Shown here piece after piece: positions 41,569 through 51,981 of a DNA stretch of 64,000 nucleotides. A model generated the notes under the pieces. The model did no database searches. It was not told the DNA's origin and was given only the letters and a program-made list of their open reading frames with translations. Each line of letters begins with the position of its first letter. Within the stretch, counting starts at the first letter, position 1. Made by a program: the position numbers and the translations under genes. The DNA is taken from positions 1 to 64,000 of the forward strand of contig JAAYFL010000055.1 in NCBI GenBank assembly GCA_012728235.1. The letters are read 5' to 3'. The DNA is from Synergistaceae bacterium (lineage in GTDB: Bacteria; Synergistota; Synergistia; Synergistales; Synergistaceae).

Positions 41569-44172
41569 TTATACTTCTGCTAAAGAATGTCCTCTTTTTG
41601 GAACTGCTTTTAATGGGATTGACAAGACACTTATATTTTCCATTACTTCAAGAAGTCTTTTCTCTACACTATCTGCATCTTCTTCTTTGCACTCACAAAC
41701 AATAGAATCATGTACCTGTAAAATAATTTTTACTCCTTTAAATTCGGTATCTGTTAACTTTTTAAATCTTATCAAAGCCAACTTTGCTATGTCAGAAGCA
41801 GAGCTTTGTATAGGGGTATTAATTGCGACCATATTTAACGAATTTTTATCCCTACCTCCTATTGTTGATACCTCGTCTAAAGGCCTAATCCTATTAAATA
41901 TTGATTCCGTATAACTTTTTTCTTTTGATATTTTAATGCTCTCATTTAAATACGTTTTTACCTTTGGTAAGGCCTCGAAATACCTTTCAACTATTTTTGA
42001 AGCTTCAGGCCTTCCTATACCAAGTCTTTGAGCCAGCCCATAAGAACCCATTCCATACAGCAATCCAAAGTTAACTACTTTTGCAAATCGTCTTTGTTCA
42101 TCAGTTATTTTTTCTTGTAGCATCGAAAAAATCCATGATGCTGTTTCCAAGTGGATATCTTTGTTTTCAGAGAATGAATTTAGAAGTTTTTCCTCATTTG
42201 ACAAATGTGCTAGAACTCTAAGCTCTATTTGAGAATAGTCAGCTGAAACAAAAATATTTCCATCATCAGGTACAAAGCATCTTCTAAATTTCATTGCACA
42301 TTCGCCAAATTGGGGCAAATTTTGTACATTCGGATCTTTACTGGAAAGGCGCCCTGTGCCAGTTGATAGGTGATCAAAAATCGAGTGAATTTTAGAATCA
42401 CCCTCTTCTGCTAATTTCAAAAATGGCTCTACGAAACCAGAATATATTTTCGATTTCTCTCTATACTTTATTAGTTTTGTAGGGACATAAGAATAAGGCT
42501 CAGGCAAACGTGACAGTTCTTCTAAAACTGTCATATCTGTAGAGAATCCTGTTGCCGTTTTTTTAATAGGAGGCAATTTCAGTTTTTCAAATAATAGCGT
42601 AGCCACCTGTTTGGGTGAATTTAAATTTATTTTTTCTGGAGACACTTCAGCGATACTGTCCTCTATTATTTTTATTTCGTTTTCTAGGTCAAATTTTAAT
42701 TGATTCAGTTTTTTTACATCTACTAAAATTCCGTTTTTATGTAAGTCTGCTAAAACAGGACAAAGAGGCAGATCTATCTCAGCTATAATCTTTTTTATTT
42801 TAGGATGATGCTCTTCTATCTCAGAATTGAAAGCGTTCCATAGTTTGAAAAGAGAGTTAGCTAATTCTGCACCCTGGGGCATTTTTGTTTTTATTGTTTC
42901 TTCTATCCCTACCCCTGCCCTGTCGGGATGCAATACATAGTGCACTATTTCCACATCTTCGATTCTTTCTAATTTAGGAAGAGGGAAAGAATCTTTCTCT
43001 AACATTTTTTTATATCCGTATAAAATAGCTGCCACGTTTTTTGTCCACTCTGTATAATAATTTAACTCTTCATTATTGTTATAACGCACATATGATATTT
43101 TCCCATTTCCATCAGCAAGAACAAGGGCTTTTACACCATCTTTAACACACTCTGCAAGAGCTAACTTATGTTTTTTTAACATTTCTGTTAATTCTATCTC
43201 TTCCGGCACAACATTATTCAGAAAAATACTACTGCAAAATGATTCTTTTGTTTGATTTGCTTCAATTGTTTCTTTTATTTTTTTCACAGGCCCGTTAGGC
43301 TTTTTACTTTCTTTCAAATTATCATATAGCCTTTTTAATCCTAACCTTTGAGTTATTTCTTTAAGCAAAGAAAAATCAACGTTTCGTTTATTTAACTCAT
43401 CCAAAGGCACACTATCTGTCTCTATTGGTATTATCAGGCTTTTACTGATATAGGCCATTTCTTTACCCAATTCAAGCTTTGTTCTTCTTGCCTTTGGGAT
43501 ACTGTCTAAATTAGCGTATATCTCATCTAACCCACTAAACTGTGCAATTAAGTCTTTTGCTCCTTTTTCTCCGATGCCCTTTACCCCAATAATATTATCA
43601 GCACTGTCTCCAACTAGTGCCAAGTAGTCTGACATTTTCTCGGGTGTAAACCCAAACTCATCGCAAAAATAAAACTTATCGTAAATTTTAAATTTTGAAA
43701 CCCCTTTTATAGGACGCATTATTTGTATATCTTTCGATATGATTTGGAATAAATCTTTGTCTGCTGTTAGAATTGTAACTTGAATTCCACTCTCTGAGGC
43801 CGCTTTAGCAGTGGACACGATATAATCATCTGCTTCAATATTGTCTCTTACAAAAACAGGAAATCCCATCGCAGTGCATATTTCAATTATAAGAGGTATT
43901 TGAACTTTTAGTTTATCTGGGGTAGGCTTCCTACCATCCTTATACTCTTTATAAAGTTCATGTCGACGAGTCGGCCCTTTTGGATCAAAGAAAATGCCTA
44001 TATAATTCGGATTAATATCCTTAACACATTTTAATAACATATTTGTAAATCCAACTATTGCATTTGTTGGTACCCCGTCTGGGGCTGTTAAAGTATCAGG
44101 CAGTGCATAGTATCCCCTGTAAACAAGGCCATGTCCATCTATTAAAAGCATTCTAGGGGTGTCTTCTATCAT
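41569..44172 (-). CDS. polA: DNA polymerase I, apparently without proofreading activity
   Basis: Gap-filling and Okazaki-fragment polymerase. The N-terminal 5'-3' exonuclease (about 1-290) has LLIDGHGLVYRGYYAL and DNIEADDYI and GDSADNIIGVKGIGEKGA. The polymerase domain (about 450-867) has motif A DYSQIELRVLAH, motif B RRFAKVVNFGLLYGMGSYGLA and motif C QVHDSIVCEC. The middle region (about 310-450), where the 3'-5' exonuclease should carry a DxE pair, reads LAECVKDGVKALVLADGNG and lacks it, as in Bacillus or Thermus enzymes. Length is 867 residues. It is divergent from gltX, with 139 nt between the start codons. Confidence 0.96.
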   Translation of the reverse strand: MIEDTPRMLLIDGHGLVYRGYYALPDTLTAPDGVPTNAIVGFTNMLLKCVKDINPNYIGIFFDPKGPTRRHELYKEYKDGRKPTPDKLKVQIPLIIEICTAMGFPVFVRDNIEADDYIVSTAKAASESGIQVTILTADKDLFQIISKDIQIMRPIKGVSKFKIYDKFYFCDEFGFTPEKMSDYLALVGDSADNIIGVKGIGEKGAKDLIAQFSGLDEIYANLDSIPKARRTKLELGKEMAYISKSLIIPIETDSVPLDELNKRNVDFSLLKEITQRLGLKRLYDNLKESKKPNGPVKKIKETIEANQTKESFCSSIFLNNVVPEEIELTEMLKKHKLALAECVKDGVKALVLADGNGKISYVRYNNNEELNYYTEWTKNVAAILYGYKKMLEKDSFPLPKLERIEDVEIVHYVLHPDRAGVGIEETIKTKMPQGAELANSLFKLWNAFNSEIEEHHPKIKKIIAEIDLPLCPVLADLHKNGILVDVKKLNQLKFDLENEIKIIEDSIAEVSPEKINLNSPKQVATLLFEKLKLPPIKKTATGFSTDMTVLEELSRLPEPYSYVPTKLIKYREKSKIYSGFVEPFLKLAEEGDSKIHSIFDHLSTGTGRLSSKDPNVQNLPQFGECAMKFRRCFVPDDGNIFVSADYSQIELRVLAHLSNEEKLLNSFSENKDIHLETASWIFSMLQEKITDEQRRFAKVVNFGLLYGMGSYGLAQRLGIGRPEASKIVERYFEALPKVKTYLNESIKISKEKSYTESIFNRIRPLDEVSTIGGRDKNSLNMVAINTPIQSSASDIAKLALIRFKKLTDTEFKGVKIILQVHDSIVCECKEEDADSVEKRLLEVMENISVLSIPLKAVPKRGHSLAEV

Positions 44173-44311: not shown

Positions 44312-45652
44312 ATGTCAGAAAAAGTAAGAGTTAGATTTGCCCCTAGCCCTACCGGTGCTTTGCATATTGGTGGAGCACACACAGCGCTTTTTAATTGGCT
44401 TTGGGCCAGACACACAGAAGGAACCTTTGTATTGCGCATAGAAGACACCGATATAGAGCGTTCAACAGCAGAATTTGAACAGTCTATTATGGACGGGTTG
44501 GATTGGCTAGGACTATCCTGGGATGAAGGGCCTAATAAAGGCGGAGATTTTGGTCCTTATAGGCAATCAGAAAGAAAAGATCTTTATTTAAAATATGCAG
44601 AACAACTACTCAACACCGGACAAGCATATAAAAAAGATGAGGCTATATTTTTTAAAGTCCCTAGCAACAAAAAGGTTATTTTGAACGATATGGTTTATGG
44701 AACTATAAACGTCATGAGTGAGAAAACTTCTGTTAATCAAGATGGTTCAATAAAAGATATAGTAATTATTAAAAGAGATGGATTACCAACCTATAACTTC
44801 GCGGTAGTGATTGATGACTACACAATGAATATAAATACTGTAATTAGAGGAGAAGACCATCTCATAAATACTCCAAAACAAATTCTTATTTATGAAGCAT
44901 TAGGCTTTGAAACTCCCATTTTTGCTCATCTTCCAATGATTTTAGGTAAAAATAAGAAAAAACTTTCCAAAAGAGAGGGAGCAACAAGTGTTTTTGAATA
45001 TAAAGATTTAGGATATTTGCCTGATGGTGTTTTTAATTTCCTTGCCTTGCTTGGATGGTCTCCTAAAAATGATCAAGAAATATTTACGAGGCAAGAAGCA
45101 ATAAATAAGTTTGACCTATCAAATATAACCAAAAAACCAGCTGTTCTAAATATTGATAAGCTAAAACATATTAATCAAGAACAAATAAAAATAATGAAAC
45201 CAAATGAACTTCTAGAAACAATAAAACCTTTCTGGATTGAATTAGGACTGAATATTTCTAACCTGTCTGACAAATACCTTTCTGATGTTTTACAAACAAT
45301 GGGTGGACGCGGGCAAACTACTATTGAGTTAGCCGAATACAGTGACTATTTTATTTCTTTTGATGTCGTAAAAAGACGATACAATGCCGCTGAAATTACG
45401 GAGGAACACAGGCAGTTACTCAAGGCTTTTTTTAACAATCTTTTCTCCTTAGAAAAATGGACTTATGAAGAACTGCATAACTATACAACAAACTGGGTGA
45501 ATGAAAATAATTCTAGTATGAAAGAAGTTGCTAATCCCTTACGTTGGGCCTTAACTGGACGCAAAGTAAGCCCTGGAATCTTTGAAGTTGCAGAGCAACT
45601 TGGGAAAGAAGAGTGTAAAATAAGATTAAAATATTATAATTTTATAAATTAG
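44312..45652 (+). CDS. gltX: Glutamate--tRNA ligase
   Basis: Class I synthetase charging tRNA-Glu. The HIGH motif reads PSPTGALHIGGAHTALFN (11-28) and the KMSKS motif reads KKLSKREGA (about 217). RGEDHLINTPKQILIYEALG is the conserved pre-KMSKS block. The 446-residue length is slightly short for the family, mostly in the anticodon-binding C-terminal half. A GGAGGAAG ribosome site precedes the ATG. Because the window also encodes glnS, this enzyme is expected to be discriminating, charging only tRNA-Glu. It converges on glnS with a shared terminator. Confidence 0.96.
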   Translation: MSEKVRVRFAPSPTGALHIGGAHTALFNWLWARHTEGTFVLRIEDTDIERSTAEFEQSIMDGLDWLGLSWDEGPNKGGDFGPYRQSERKDLYLKYAEQLLNTGQAYKKDEAIFFKVPSNKKVILNDMVYGTINVMSEKTSVNQDGSIKDIVIIKRDGLPTYNFAVVIDDYTMNINTVIRGEDHLINTPKQILIYEALGFETPIFAHLPMILGKNKKKLSKREGATSVFEYKDLGYLPDGVFNFLALLGWSPKNDQEIFTRQEAINKFDLSNITKKPAVLNIDKLKHINQEQIKIMKPNELLETIKPFWIELGLNISNLSDKYLSDVLQTMGGRGQTTIELAEYSDYFISFDVVKRRYNAAEITEEHRQLLKAFFNNLFSLEKWTYEELHNYTTNWVNENNSSMKEVANPLRWALTGRKVSPGIFEVAEQLGKEECKIRLKYYNFIN

Positions 45653-45841: not shown

Positions 45842-47515
45842 TTACTTATTTTGTTCTTTTTTCCAAGAATCTTTTAGAGCAACAGTTAAATTAAATACTG
45901 GAGCTTCTTTTGTTGTTGTCTTATCCGCACAAAAATAACCTTGTCGTAAAAATTGGAATCTTTCGAAGGGGACAGCATTGGCCAAACAAGGCTCAACCAA
46001 AACGTTTTCCAGCACTACAAGAGAGTTTGGATTTAGATAATACGAAAGATCTTTCCCTTCTTCAACCATACTCATATCACGAAGTGTAAAGAGGTGATCA
46101 TATAAATTTACTTTTGACCTTACAGCATTACCTTCCCAAACCCAATGTAGAGTACCTCTAACCCTCCGTCCATCTGGGGCGGCTCCTCCACGACTCTCCA
46201 TATCCACCGTACAATGTAGTTCTATTATTTTGCCAGATTCATCTTTTATAACATCGTGACAACTTATTAAATAAGCATGTTTTAGTCTCACTTCTTTCCC
46301 AGGAGAAAGTCTAAAAAAGTTTTTAACTGGGGATTCCATAAAATCTGACTGTTCTATATAAATTATTTTACCTATTTTAATTTCTCTGCTGCCAGCCATA
46401 TGATTTTCAGGATTATTTTCTGCTTCAACGGTATCTATAAAATTTTCGGGCCAGTTTGTGAGAACCACTTTCAGTGGTTGAAGGACAGCCATGCATCTAT
46501 CAGACTCTTTATTCAGCTCTTCTCTTATACAGTGTTGTAGAAAGTCAACGTCTATTAAGCTCTCTGATTTTGCAACCCCTATCTCATTGCAAAATCTCCT
46601 AATGGAAGAGGGAGTATACCCCCTAGCCCTAAATCCTGAGATGGTTGGCATTCTCGGGTCATCCCATCCATTTACAATTTTCCTTGTAACCAGTTCTGAT
46701 AATTTCCTTTTGCTCATTAGTGTATAAGTTAAATTCAAACGAGCAAATTCAAACTGGCGAGGGACACTTGGCACGCCAACGTTTTCTATAAACCAATTAT
46801 AAAGCGGCATATGGTCTTGAAATTCTAAGGTGCAAATAGAGTGAGTAATGCCCTCTATTGCATCTTCGTATCCGTGTGCGAAGTCATACATTGGATATAT
46901 ACACCATTTATTACCAGTTCTAAGATGGTCACTCTTTAAAATTCGATACATAACCGGATCTCTCATATTTAAGTTACTACTAGACATATCTATTTTTGCT
47001 CTTAGTACACAGGAACCTTCATCAAAATCACCATTTTTCATTCGCTCGAATAGCAATAGATTTTCTTCTATGCTTCTAGAACGATATGGAGAATCAACCC
47101 CACCCTTTGTTAACGTACCTCTATTTTCTTTAATTTCATCGCCAGTTTGATCGTCTACATAGGCTTTACCAGCTTTGATAAGCTCTATTGCCCATTCATA
47201 AAATTGGTCGAAATAATCAGAAGCAAAACAAAGCTTATCCCATTCAAAACCCAGCCACTTTACATCTTGTATTATAGATTCTACGAACTCGCCTTCCTCT
47301 TTTACGGGATTCGTATCATCAAATCTCCAGTTGCATTTACCATTAAATGTTTCAGCCAACCCGAAGTTTAAACAAATAGATTTCGCATGTCCGATGTGTA
47401 AATAACCATTTGGTTCTGGGGGGAATCGAGTTATTAGTGATTTAGTTACACCACTTTCTAAATCTTTTTCGATTATTTCTTCCAAAAAATTATTGTTTTT
47501 TTCTTTATCTGACAT
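45842..47515 (-). CDS. glnS: Glutamine--tRNA ligase
   Basis: Class I synthetase charging tRNA-Gln directly. It has the HIGH motif [20 protein letters not shown] (about 27-46), DDTNPVKEE typical of GlnRS, and the KMSKS-like LMSKRKL near 268, with a C-terminal beta-barrel anticodon-binding domain. The 557-residue length is normal. GlnRS entered bacteria from eukaryotes and is absent from most Firmicutes but frequent in Proteobacteria and some other phyla, which bears on taxonomy. An GGAGGG ribosome site precedes the ATG. Its substrate tRNA is at 22668-22742. Confidence 0.97.
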
Positions 47516-47583: not shown

Positions 47584-48603
47584 TTAAAGCAAACCCAGAA
47601 TTAAATTCGGGTTAGAATTCAATAAAAAAATAAAACATATTATAAAAATAATAATTAAATGAATTAGTATTAGCGACAATAATCTGGGCAATATATGTTT
47701 TAACTTATCTCTTATTTCCCAAAAAATAGGAATAACAAATGACCTCGTTAATATGATTGTAATAAAATAAACAAAGAAGTTGATTGTTTTAATAAACCAA
47801 GGAATATTTATATTTTGAGAATTACTAGGTATATTTATAAAAGGTAGCAACGTTACCAAAATGATTGATATTATCAAAAAAGAACGCAACAATGACCATA
47901 AAGAGATTATAACTCTTGGAGCGCCTTGGAATTCGACTAACACATTATTATTTGTCAAATATTTAGAATTTTTACGAGTTTCGTGAGGTAATAATGCGAA
48001 GATAATCGCAGAGATAAATAGTAAAACAGCATAAACCAGAAAATTTTTCGTGCTCAACAATCCTGATACAGCAAGAGAACTCAATTTAAAAGTATCTGTA
48101 ATACTAGAAGTTTTGTCTATATAGACAGCTATCAATGTAAAAAAAGCAATTATAAAAAAGCATGAATAAGCGAATTCTTTTATCATTTCTTTGGCTATTA
48201 GCCTTGAAACTTTTGTTCCTAAAGCATAGATAGCTAGTGTAGCAAAAACTTCTGAAAATAATAAAAACTGTACTATCTGTAATAAATCAGTGTTTTTTTG
48301 TATATAAGGAATAAAGGAAAAGTATGGAATAGTTGTACAAATAGGCATCAAGGCTGAAAGAGCGAGAACTGGTGCAGAAATGACAATTGCAACGGAAGCT
48401 GTTTCAGGCAAAACGACCTTACTAAGAAACTGTTTTTTGATAAGAACAAAGCTATATTCTTCACTTTTTTTCTTTAGCCAACTAATAAATATTTTTTTAA
48501 AATAAATAGCCGAGTATTCAATAAATACCGCCATAAAAAGAACAAACAGGAAAGCAATACCTGCTAACAAAAATTTTAGGAGAGAGATGATTAGATTAAA
48601 CAA
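47584..48603 (-). CDS. NuoH/EchB-like membrane subunit, divergent
   Basis: Very hydrophobic protein with about eight predicted membrane helices, resembling the subunit-1 family of complex I and group 4 hydrogenases (NuoH, EchB, HyfC). The best local similarity is VLVEFQGAPRVIISLWSLLR (about 221-240), which matches the EYSGp...all stretch of that family. The acidic loop normally preceding it (PEAExEL type) appears lost, replaced by KNSKYLTNN. Start is TTG 48603 with GGAG about 6-7 nt upstream. Length is 339 residues. It is the third gene of a membrane-only cluster and is followed by glnS, with no catalytic hydrogenase or NADH-dehydrogenase gene nearby. Confidence 0.65.
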   Translation of the reverse strand: MFNLIISLLKFLLAGIAFLFVLFMAVFIEYSAIYFKKIFISWLKKKSEEYSFVLIKKQFLSKVVLPETASVAIVISAPVLALSALMPICTTIPYFSFIPYIQKNTDLLQIVQFLLFSEVFATLAIYALGTKVSRLIAKEMIKEFAYSCFFIIAFFTLIAVYIDKTSSITDTFKLSSLAVSGLLSTKNFLVYAVLLFISAIIFALLPHETRKNSKYLTNNNVLVEFQGAPRVIISLWSLLRSFLIISIILVTLLPFINIPSNSQNINIPWFIKTINFFVYFITIILTRSFVIPIFWEIRDKLKHILPRLLSLILIHLIIIFIICFIFLLNSNPNLILGLL

Positions 48604-48617
48604 AATTTTCTCCTTTC

Positions 48618-48926
48618 TTAACGAAAAAATATTGCCACAGCAAAAAAGAAAAATAACATTAGGATTGCTATTAAATCGCTGGATGGATTATTAAACCATA
48701 TGTCTATACAATTATTATGTAATATATATAAAAAGCTTTTTTCTTCATTTAAATCACTATCTATTATAACTTTGTCTACTATACTCTCTTTATAAATCAA
48801 TCCGTTAGATGTATTTTTTATAATTAGAAACTGTATAATCCCTAAAATTATAACTGTAAGAAGAAAAAGAACACTCCAAGAAAATACGCCCCAAGTAAAA
48901 TAGTCAGTTACAATTTTAGTTACCAT
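48618..48926 (-). CDS. Small two-helix membrane protein of unknown function
   Basis: 102-residue protein with one hydrophobic helix near 14-36 and another near 83-101. Between them lies a hydrophilic stretch with DSDLNEEKS. I do not recognise a family. Its ATG overlaps the stop of the preceding antiporter-like gene (TAATG), and it ends 15 nt before the NuoH-like gene, so the three are translated together. It occupies the place of a small extra subunit between EchA-like and EchB-like proteins. Confidence 0.75.
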   Translation of the reverse strand: MVTKIVTDYFTWGVFSWSVLFLLTVIILGIIQFLIIKNTSNGLIYKESIVDKVIIDSDLNEEKSFLYILHNNCIDIWFNNPSSDLIAILMLFFFFAVAIFFR

Positions 48927-50530
48927 TATTCTTCTCCATCTCTATTTAATAATCTAAAAACTTCCTTGTTTGCTAAAAGAGAGTCTACCGAAGGTGAAAG
49001 ATATTTATTAAAAAATATGCCAGAGTAAAAAGTTGCAAACATAAAAAACAGTAATAACATGCTCAAATATATTTTAATAGCAATAGGCGTTTTATATTTT
49101 TCATTATTTATTAATATTCTCCTACTGATAAAAATATGAACAAAAAAACGCAGGGAATATATTAACATAATCAGCAATGATATGAACAAAAACAGCATAA
49201 GAATTGGATTATAATTGAATGCTGCCCTATACAAAAACTGTTTTGTCGCAAATCCTACAAATGGTGGCAATCCTGCCATTACACAGATCGACAAGAAAAA
49301 AGCTGCTGTGTGAATTGGGATTATATTAAACAAACCTCCGTACTGCCATAATTCTATATTGTTATATTTCTTTTTTAAATTAATAGAAATTATTGAAAGA
49401 ATCGCTGAAAAAGGTAAATATAATATCCAAGTGGAAAGCATTCCATCCATTGCTATAAACCCGTATCGTACCAATTTATCTGCACTGAAAACTCCTTCCA
49501 TTGCGACACTTAACATTATAAGCATCAGTGCCTTTAAATACTGCTCCATATTTTGAGTAAATTCTGTCGGATTAAAACTTCTGCCCATTACAACTATTAC
49601 CAAAAATATGTCAATTAATCCCAAGAAAATAAATAAAATAGGAATCTTGTCTAGCCCCGGAATCGGCCTGTATAACAAAAAAACAACTCGAATAATAATG
49701 AAAAAGGATGCTTGTGACATCATTCTAAAAAATGTTCTACTTGTGACGTCTTCTACGTAAGGGAAGTGATTTATAAACATAAAGAAGGTGGGAACTAACA
49801 GGAATATAAAAGCATACAACTCACTTCTATTACCAGTAATTAAACTTGAAAGAAGTGCAACGTTGTCAGTTTTAAAAACCTTATAAAAAAAGAATGAAGC
49901 AATAAAAAACATAATTATAAGCAAGAACCTGGAGGAATAGTACCATATGGAATCAATAAATTCCTTTGAGTTAGACGGAATTGCCTTATAGAGTCCAATA
50001 ATACCAACTTGAGTAATAAATAAAAATATTGCCATGGCAATAAGACCATCAGAATAAAACACACCTTGAACACCACAAAGGGTTAGAAGGAAAAAACCAG
50101 CTTTAGTCGGGGATAATTGTTTTTCCTTATCTATCAATGTAGAAAGTATTGATCCTAATGATATAAATGCTGTTACTGCAGCCGAAAAAGCCCCTAAGGT
50201 ATCAACTTGTATTAAAGCGTGAATTCTTTGGTTTTCACCAATCAAAGTTCTAACCCATCCACTACTACTTAATATATAGTAAGAAGTTCCTCCCGTACGA
50301 ACGTGCGATAATATCATTAAAGTTAAAAAAAAGTTTAGCAGGAAAATTCCAAACAATAAAAAATTAATGATTCCCCTTTCATTTTTAGCTATTAAGCCTT
50401 CTTCCAAAACTACAAGTCGTCGATAAATTCTCTGTATAAAAATTAACATTGACGCAATAAAAGGTATTACTAGGCTTATGAATGGCATTGGTGCCGAAAA
50501 TAAATAATTTGCAAGTTTTATAAAAAACAC
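48926..50530 (-). CDS. NuoL/M/EchA-like antiporter-type membrane subunit, divergent
   Basis: Hydrophobic protein of 534 residues with about 14 predicted helices, related to proton-translocating subunits of complex I, Mrp antiporters and Ech/Hyf hydrogenases. The clearest signature is AGLPPFVGFATKQFLYRAAF (about 429-448), matching the GLPPxxGFxxK motif with its conserved Lys. By eye the helix 5 position that usually holds a key Glu reads MAIFLFITQVGIIGLY, and the usual Lys in helix 7-8 is replaced in NHFPYVEDVTSRTFFRMMSQ. Start is GTG 50530 with AGGAGG 9 nt upstream. It is first of three genes and divergent from the symporter. Confidence 0.75.
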   Translation of the reverse strand: MFFIKLANYLFSAPMPFISLVIPFIASMLIFIQRIYRRLVVLEEGLIAKNERGIINFLLFGIFLLNFFLTLMILSHVRTGGTSYYILSSSGWVRTLIGENQRIHALIQVDTLGAFSAAVTAFISLGSILSTLIDKEKQLSPTKAGFFLLTLCGVQGVFYSDGLIAMAIFLFITQVGIIGLYKAIPSNSKEFIDSIWYYSSRFLLIIMFFIASFFFYKVFKTDNVALLSSLITGNRSELYAFIFLLVPTFFMFINHFPYVEDVTSRTFFRMMSQASFFIIIRVVFLLYRPIPGLDKIPILFIFLGLIDIFLVIVVMGRSFNPTEFTQNMEQYLKALMLIMLSVAMEGVFSADKLVRYGFIAMDGMLSTWILYLPFSAILSIISINLKKKYNNIELWQYGGLFNIIPIHTAAFFLSICVMAGLPPFVGFATKQFLYRAAFNYNPILMLFLFISLLIMLIYSLRFFVHIFISRRILINNEKYKTPIAIKIYLSMLLLFFMFATFYSGIFFNKYLSPSVDSLLANKEVFRLLNRDGEE

Positions 50531-50684: not shown

Positions 50685-50751
50685 ATCCATATTGGTAAGA
50701 CTAACAGATGCAATTTGTAGAATAACAAAACTTATTAAGGGAGTGGTACAT

Positions 50752-51981
50752 GTGAGTGAGCGTAAAAAAATGTCTCTTATCGGGAAAATAACGATAGGAT
50801 TCATAATCGGTATCGTGCTAGGATTTATAATTGGTCCCATTGCTCCAAAATACACATTAATTTCGGCCTATATTTTGCCAATTCTAGATTTAATAGGAAG
50901 AATTTTTATTGCATTGCTGAAAATGCTCATTGTGCCCCTAGTATTTACAAGCATTATTATGGGAGCAGCTTCTGTTGGTGATCCTAAAGCGTTAGGGCGC
51001 ATTGGCATTAAAACTCTTATTTTATACTCAGTCACAACCTGTATTGCAATAATTTTTGGTCTGCTGCTTGCCAATCTTGTTCAGCCCGGAATCGGACTTT
51101 CTTTGGAAGGAGCCGCTGGTGAAGCTAAAGCTGCAATGAGTATGTTTGAAGTAATAGAGAATATCTTCCCAGCTAACCCACTTGAAGCATTAGTATCTGG
51201 AAAAATGTTACAGGTCATTGTATTTGCTCTTTTCCTAGGAATTGCTGCCTCTCTAATTGGCAAAAAGGGGCAAAGCTTTCTTGAGGTAAATGAGTCTATC
51301 GCTGAAACTATGTATAAAATTACTAATATTGTTATGCAAACGGCACCACTTGGTGTTTTCGCACTTATTGCAACAACTGCGGCTAAGTACGGCCCTGCCG
51401 TGTTGGCTCCTTTCGCTAAAGTTATTTTTGCTGTGTACTTGGGATGTTTTTTACATGCGATAATAGCATATTCAGGCTTAGTTGTTCTATTTACAAAAAA
51501 ATCCCCGATCTGGTTTTTTGGCGGCATAAAAGAAACCATGTTAGCTGCATTTGTTACTCGCTCCAGTTCTGCGGTCTTACCTATATCGTTGAAAAATGCA
51601 CAGGAGAACCTTAAGATATCAGAACGAGTCTCTTCTTTTGTGTTACCCTTGGGGGCGACAATCAACATGGATGGAACTGCACTTTACCAGGGTGTTTGTG
51701 CCTTGTTTATAGCACAAGCTTTCGGTATACACCTTGATTTAGCTGCACAAGTTACTATCGTACTAACAGCAACCCTTGCCTCCATTGGAACAGCCGGTGT
51801 TCCCGGAGCCGGTCTCATAATGCTATCTATGGTTCTGGCATCTGTAGGCCTTCCTATTGAAGGGATTGGATTAGTTGCTGGAATAGACCCAGTTCTAGAT
51901 ATGGCAAGAACGTGTATAAATGTAACTGGAGATATCAGCGTTGCGTCAGTGGTAGCAAAATCTGAAGGCGAAGTACTATAG
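50752..51981 (+). CDS. gltP: Dicarboxylate/amino acid:cation symporter (aspartate/glutamate type)
   Basis: Secondary transporter of the DAACS family that imports glutamate, aspartate or C4-dicarboxylates with Na+ or H+. Hairpin 1 carries TRSSSAVLP, helix 7 carries GATINMDGTA (the NMD motif), hairpin 2 carries GTAGVPGAG, and helix 8 carries IDPVLDMARTCINVTGD. In the last, Asp, Arg and Asn occupy the positions of GltPh D394, R397 and N401, and the flanking Asp match D390 and D405. This supports acidic amino acids as substrates and Na+ coupling. The frame is open to 50692; GTG 50752 was chosen for its GGGAG at 8 nt. Length is 409 residues. Confidence 0.93.
   Translation: MSERKKMSLIGKITIGFIIGIVLGFIIGPIAPKYTLISAYILPILDLIGRIFIALLKMLIVPLVFTSIIMGAASVGDPKALGRIGIKTLILYSVTTCIAIIFGLLLANLVQPGIGLSLEGAAGEAKAAMSMFEVIENIFPANPLEALVSGKMLQVIVFALFLGIAASLIGKKGQSFLEVNESIAETMYKITNIVMQTAPLGVFALIATTAAKYGPAVLAPFAKVIFAVYLGCFLHAIIAYSGLVVLFTKKSPIWFFGGIKETMLAAFVTRSSSAVLPISLKNAQENLKISERVSSFVLPLGATINMDGTALYQGVCALFIAQAFGIHLDLAAQVTIVLTATLASIGTAGVPGAGLIMLSMVLASVGLPIEGIGLVAGIDPVLDMARTCINVTGDISVASVVAKSEGEVL

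Follow-up and report, generated by a model that had tools for sequence, protein, structure and literature searches.

A hydrogenase-like H-I-M membrane core without catalytic subunits is conserved in Synergistaceae and has probably been repurposed

Three genes lie at 47584-50530 of the window, i.e., the whole stretch of 64,000 nucleotides analysed here, which belongs to a draft Synergistaceae genome (1.57 Mb, 163 contigs, 96% complete). They share one strand; the reading frames of the first two, H and I, overlap by 1 bp, a gap of 14 bp separates I from M, and glnS is the next gene (Table 1). The open reading frames are as the initial annotation gave them, and its description of three coupled genes with glnS behind them stands. 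A Pfam search of the three proteins returned nothing meaningful for any of them, and the NCBIfam models matched H alone (MrpD/NuoL-M, 1e-19), with none for I or M. Because the NuoH profile (PF00146) does not recognize M of the trio, an annotation that relies on Pfam only would overlook this subunit.

Table 1. Positions of the trio, its selected codons and neighbours in the window, and of the M2 genes at other loci
Feature	Coordinates	Strand	Remarks
Trio subunit H	48926..50530	(-)	MbhH/MrpD/NuoL-type antiporter-like protein, 534 aa, GTG start
Trio subunit I	48618..48926	(-)	MbhI homologue, 102 aa; N-terminal membrane helix TGFFxWDVxxW retained, MbhI Loop-1 motif absent
Trio subunit M	47584..48603	(-)	MbhM/NuoH-like, 339 aa, TTG start; PMDIxEAKTEI and GPPLLQPFYD motifs absent
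Codon F171 of H	50018..50020	(-)	Site of the pumping helix-5 Glu in intact MbhH
Codon R201 of H	49928..49930	(-)	New intramembrane Arg, 19/19 trio; Ser in 10/10 intact MbhH
Codon K333 of H	49532..49534	(-)	New Lys, 19/19 trio; Thr/Val/Ile in intact; 5 residues from the lost His
Codon K430 of H	49241..49243	(-)	Lys of GLPPxxGFxxK, broken helix 12, retained
M region with the lost acidic TM5-6 loop (Loop 3, PMDIxEAKTEI)	47941..47991	(-)	Residue comparison; loop role, PMC11228991, PMC7684303
glnS	45842..47515	(-)	Downstream neighbour of the trio in Synergistaceae (ansA between in many genera); synteny anchor
gltX	44312..45652	(+)	Synteny anchor common to intact hydrogenase loci of other families
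polA	41569..44172	(-)	Synteny anchor common to intact hydrogenase loci
gltP-like Na+:dicarboxylate/amino-acid symporter (PF00375)	50692..51981	(+)	Divergent neighbour of the trio, several genera
M2	L088:6464-7390		Conserved TRAP-QM/TAXI/DUF1850 cluster
M2	L089:5915-6826		Same conserved cluster
M2	L090:6639-7550		Same conserved cluster
M2	L091:2490-3413		Same conserved cluster
M2	L092:6503-7426		Same conserved cluster
M2	L093:6125-7042		Same conserved cluster
M2	L094:6243-7160		Same conserved cluster
M2	L095:5637-6611		Same conserved cluster
M2	L096:6417-7343		Same conserved cluster
M2	L097:6121-7032		Same conserved cluster

The trio consists, with near certainty, of homologues of subunits H, I and M of the membrane-bound [NiFe] hydrogenase (MBH), in the MBH order, and is not specifically related to Ech. 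Profiles of the trio proteins match those of the corresponding subunits in intact clusters of relatives, at 1e-39 for H, 2e-20 for M and 2e-9 for I (29 columns, covering the first helix), and the trio M also matches Pyrococcus furiosus MbhM directly (6cfw_M, 5e-13). The intact-cluster profiles are in turn tied to P. furiosus MBH, H to 6cfw_H at 6e-136, I to 6cfw_I at 3e-10 and M to 6cfw_M at 1e-70. AlphaFold models of the window proteins agree with this assignment: H (pLDDT 81) keeps the antiporter fold and aligns with 6cfw_H at a TM-score of 0.77, and the best PDB fold for M (pLDDT 76) is 6cfw_M (TM-score 0.67). The origin from Ech, read earlier from an EchA-then-EchB order, gives way to MBH H-I-M on both gene order and homology. 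Likewise, the middle protein, at first thought to be of no recognized family, is a homologue of MbhI, because the 112-aa gene of intact relatives in the same place matches 6cfw_I. The C-terminal part of NuoL bears a lateral helix, and a fusion of H with I resembles NuoL; such fusions, in a single reading frame, are present at two loci of genus g13, Candidatus Caccocola (L048:6752-8659 and L049:9060-11069).

Elsewhere in this Synergistota order, in families other than Synergistaceae, the locus of the trio is occupied by a complete cluster (Mrp-like genes and H-I-J-K-L-M-N). These intact clusters run from small Mrp-like genes through H, the 112-aa gene and NuoB/NuoC/NuoD-like genes to a NuoH-like gene, which in several of them is followed by a NuoI-like ferredoxin, and their NuoD-like protein carries the CGIC and CISC motifs (Ni-binding CxxC) of the [NiFe] hydrogenase large subunit. 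Downstream of the intact clusters lie gltX and polA in most cases and ansA in several; downstream of the trio come ansA or glnS, gltX and polA. The flanks are shared, and the two therefore represent one locus, in which H-I-M is H-I-JKL-M minus JKL. As ansA already trails M in the intact hydrogenase loci, it is an inherited neighbour, and ansA and glnS were rejected as functional operon partners of the trio. Among Synergistaceae, a complete MBH cluster is present in a single genome (G005, locus L058), which has Rnf as well; H and M of this genome group with their counterparts in a genome from another family (G041), by retention or transfer.

The antiporter-like subunits of MBH and MBS have a helix-5 Glu, a central Lys/His axis, and charged residues where helices 7 and 12 are broken; Loop 1 (MbhI), Loop 2 (MbhL) and Loop 3 (TM5-6 of MbhM) link the redox reaction to pumping (PMC7684303, PMC11228991). 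We compared these positions in 19 trio members and 10 intact relatives. The helix-5 position of H is Glu in all ten intact relatives and Leu, Ile, Met, Ala or Phe in all 19 trio members, with neither Glu nor Asp in any of them. The LAMKCGAVP segment, which holds the helix-7 Lys, is deleted from H in 19/19, and the His of 'AYHSVSQ' is missing from the same 19. In addition, I no longer has its Loop 1 motif, nor M that of Loop 3 (PMDIxEAKTEI), and Loop 2 has gone together with MbhL. The GLPPxxGFxxK Lys on helix 12 of H, present in the window, is Lys in 15, Arg in two and lost in two members, i.e., Lys or Arg in 17/19. Four features first noted by eye, the missing helix-5 Glu, the missing helix 7-8 Lys, the missing acidic loop of the NuoH-like protein and the surviving GLPPxxGFxxK motif, are thus all borne out. 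Other polar residues have become invariant in the trio, namely Q174, R201, K333, Q431 and R435 of H, and Q109, D170 and R230 of M. Judged from the sequences, the polar interior of the trio is altered rather than erased.

This pattern bears on the proposal that the trio is a proton- or sodium-conducting antiporter-like complex, working with a different, unrelated partner (redox or decarboxylase) whose gene lies elsewhere, which we consider unlikely. The mostly retained helix-12 Lys and the antiporter fold of the H model would suit such a complex, and R201 and K333, as new charges in the buried interior, could make another axis. However, the helix-5 Glu, the helix-7 Lys segment and the central His have disappeared from 19/19 members, the three coupling loops are altered or missing, no perfectly co-occurring partner was found, and the distribution of Rnf is mismatched with that of the trio.

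Homologues of H occur in 38 of 61 related genomes. A profile search finds trio-type H in 24 of 53 Synergistaceae genomes, a 25th match being the full cluster of G005, so the same trio, whose presence in relatives had been left to be checked, recurs in 12 genera. At each of the 19 Synergistaceae loci examined in these 12 genera, H is followed by I and then M, a conservation of the same genes in the same order that is far beyond chance. A scan of public genomes with a single peptide pattern, of limited sensitivity, returned only Synergistaceae relatives, and no paper was found in the open-access literature that describes either a module of this kind in Synergistetes/Synergistota or a complex I core free of catalytic subunits. 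The trio is dispensable, since several Synergistaceae genera are without it.

Within four within-genus pairs taken from genera other than the window's own, dN/dS (NG86) is 0.05-0.14 for H, 0.08-0.19 for I and 0.07-0.17 for M, next to 0.01-0.07 for glnS. These values show purifying selection on all three genes. The three proteins evolve several-fold faster than glnS. Their pairwise distances correlate beyond what glnS accounts for (partial r 0.70-0.86; H-M 0.73, H-I 0.86). From gene order, the H-I fusions and these correlated rates, we infer that the three proteins are still assembled into a single complex. Evolution is accelerated in the genus to which the window belongs (34% GC), clearly so for the NuoH-like M, in which 24 of 48 otherwise conserved residues are changed; a local slide toward loss of the trio is possible in this genus.

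Slow decay, in which the trio is a non-functional hydrogenase remnant awaiting deletion, is improbable for the family at large. It would explain why the proton path and coupling loops are gone, why the genes evolve fast relative to glnS and are wholly missing from several genera, and why M of the window is without half of the family-conserved residues. Against it, H, I and M have uninterrupted frames at the 19 loci in 12 genera, dN/dS lies far under 1 in the four pairs, new residues have become invariant, and unconstrained genes would have vanished along the stem of the trio, which measures 2.7 changes per site. The dN/dS of about 0.05-0.19 in close pairs speaks against plain decay across the family. 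Between the two outcomes that the initial annotation had left side by side, decay of the membrane part or its reuse, the dN/dS values, the single clade spanning 12 genera and the new invariant residues favour reuse and make decay the less probable account for the family as a whole. Functional reuse is the likely reading across Synergistaceae.

The trio forms a single clade (support 100/100). With P. furiosus MBH as the root of the tree, its place is among the intact clusters, beside those of family f5 (98/95, with long branches); an alternative tree with all intact clusters in one clade stands unrejected (AU p 0.086), which leaves the nested position insecure. That alternative would fit a trio that is an ancestral Mrp-like module predating the hydrogenase genes and not a reduced MBH, an explanation that is very unlikely: the order H-I-J-K-L-M is found both in archaeal MBH and in the intact Synergistota clusters, so that H-I-M results from deletion of J-K-L, and the shared locus and flanks, as well as the nesting in the rooted tree, point the same way. 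In family f5 itself, two loci (L034 of G040 and L039 of G057) hold full MBH-type clusters with intact [NiFe] cysteine motifs, from which the helix-5 Glu, the helix-7 Lys and the acidic loop of MbhM have all been lost. The f5 enzyme is possibly an uncoupled hydrogenase, intermediate toward the trio.

The catalytic genes are absent not only from the locus. No match to NuoH (PF00146), NuoD (PF00346), NuoB (PF01058) or MnhB (PF04039) was found in the window genome, and the only PF00361 match there is H, with no second antiporter-like subunit. Among Synergistaceae genomes, NuoD is absent from 52 of 53, and NuoB and MnhB from 36 of the 37 searched for each, G005 being the exception every time. Loss of the J, K, L and Mrp genes from Synergistaceae genomes, and with them of the enzyme, is near certain, and the description of the trio as an orphan membrane module without catalytic subunits holds in this 96%-complete genome, which lacks NuoB and NuoD. 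An ordinary split hydrogenase, with its catalytic subunits elsewhere or in an assembly gap, is conceivable for a draft in 163 contigs and yet scarcely credible: as far as the Pfam profiles used can detect them, NuoB and NuoD are absent from the trio genomes searched, including the single-contig, 99%-complete G015 and G029, which refutes such a split. Both findings named at the outset as pointing to such an enzyme came out negative, i.e., no catalytic genes turned up elsewhere in the window genome or in the trio genomes searched, and the catalytic Glu and Lys are absent from the alignment in 19/19.

Rnf (PF03116) and NuoD are almost mutually exclusive in this order: 35 of the 61 have Rnf only, 15 NuoD only, four both and seven neither, counts taken without correction for relatedness; three of the four genomes with both belong to f5. 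It is plausible that Rnf replaced MBH. The trio is not a part of Rnf, because G006 carries the trio without Rnf, and several genera have Rnf without the trio; a role as Rnf accessory was rejected on these grounds. In genus g6, the genomes G006 and G024, both near-complete, lack Rnf as well as MBH; the trio of G006 is very divergent, and G024 has none.

In sum, we consider it probable that an MBH-type hydrogenase lost its catalytic part and that its H-I-M core, the trio, was rebuilt and reused in the membrane. The ancestor at this locus would have been an MBH-type, Mrp-linked [NiFe] hydrogenase, from which the Mrp genes, J-K-L and N were deleted in Synergistaceae, probably after Rnf had taken over ferredoxin-linked ion pumping. 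H, I and M would have stayed together, giving up the loops for redox coupling along with the first half-channel for protons, and acquiring other buried polar residues that became invariant. As far as its sequences tell, the product is probably a repurposed, redox-free membrane complex with a new job in the membrane.

A search with the trio M profile uncovered a second orphan derived from MbhM/NuoH, M2 (~305 aa), in ten genomes of about eight genera, nine of which carry the trio, the tenth being the incomplete G009; the window genome gave no M2 match. M2 matches the MbhM profile at 6e-38 and 6cfw_M at 5e-7, has no Pfam or NCBIfam match, and is the sister of the trio M (99/99, long branches). 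Like the trio M, it belongs to the NuoH-type fold family and has no catalytic partners; unlike it, M2 stands alone, without H or I, and keeps more MbhM-like motifs. In most of the ten loci M2 follows a TRAP fused permease (TRAP-QM) and a TAXI binding protein, and at 9/10 its gene and a DUF1850 gene are convergent. Some TAXI proteins bind glutamate (PMC11574862, PMC12344293).

The leading guess for the job of the trio is that of a transport accessory or an altered ion path. The Na+:dicarboxylate (SDF) symporter gene that adjoins it in several genera, and the place of M2 beside TAXI-TRAP, hint that the trio assists the uptake of anions or amino acids, as an accessory or an ion-conducting scaffold, a guess that may be right but is doubtful. 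Since neighbourhood is weak functional evidence, a transport role is offered here as a reading and not as a result. The wider proposal, that H-I-M and, separately, M2 represent a new class of the complex I superfamily, performing neither redox chemistry nor classical proton pumping and serving as accessories (ion-conducting or scaffolding) of secondary transporters for glutamate-like anions in amino-acid fermenting Synergistaceae, is speculative and rather unlikely to hold in full.

The usual account of complex I and its relatives is one of growth by added modules. The trio seems to be the reverse case, a membrane core that was stripped of its redox engine and pump residues, kept, and rebuilt under selection. 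If it is a complex that works, it would show what an antiporter-like and NuoH-like core is capable of without electron transfer, and would bear on how such subunits move ions. The family offers natural intermediates, i.e., an intact hydrogenase site without pump residues (f5), the trio only, and none.

Compared with known systems, the trio differs from respiratory complex I in that the window genome has no NuoB, no NuoD and no set of three antiporter-like subunits. It shares with Ech hydrogenase (EchA-F) an antiporter-like protein followed by a NuoH-like protein, but its closest solved homologues are those of MBH, a separate MbhI-type gene lies in between, and EchC-F are missing. H has the fold of MrpD of the Mrp antiporter (MrpA-G), whereas MrpA, B, C, E, F and G are absent, as are MnhB from the window genome and the pumping residues, and the trio includes a NuoH-type subunit, which Mrp does not have. 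With respect to MBH of P. furiosus (PDB 6CFW; MbhA-N), the trio is without MbhJ, K, L and N, the Mrp subunits, the pumping Glu, Lys and His, and the Loop 1 and Loop 3 motifs. By themselves, the three proteins are incapable of redox chemistry, and ferredoxin-dependent H2 evolution coupled to ion pumping would not be expected of them without MbhL. It is nevertheless MBH to whose H, I and M the three subunits are homologous, in equal order, and full MBH-type clusters that relatives carry at the locus of the trio.
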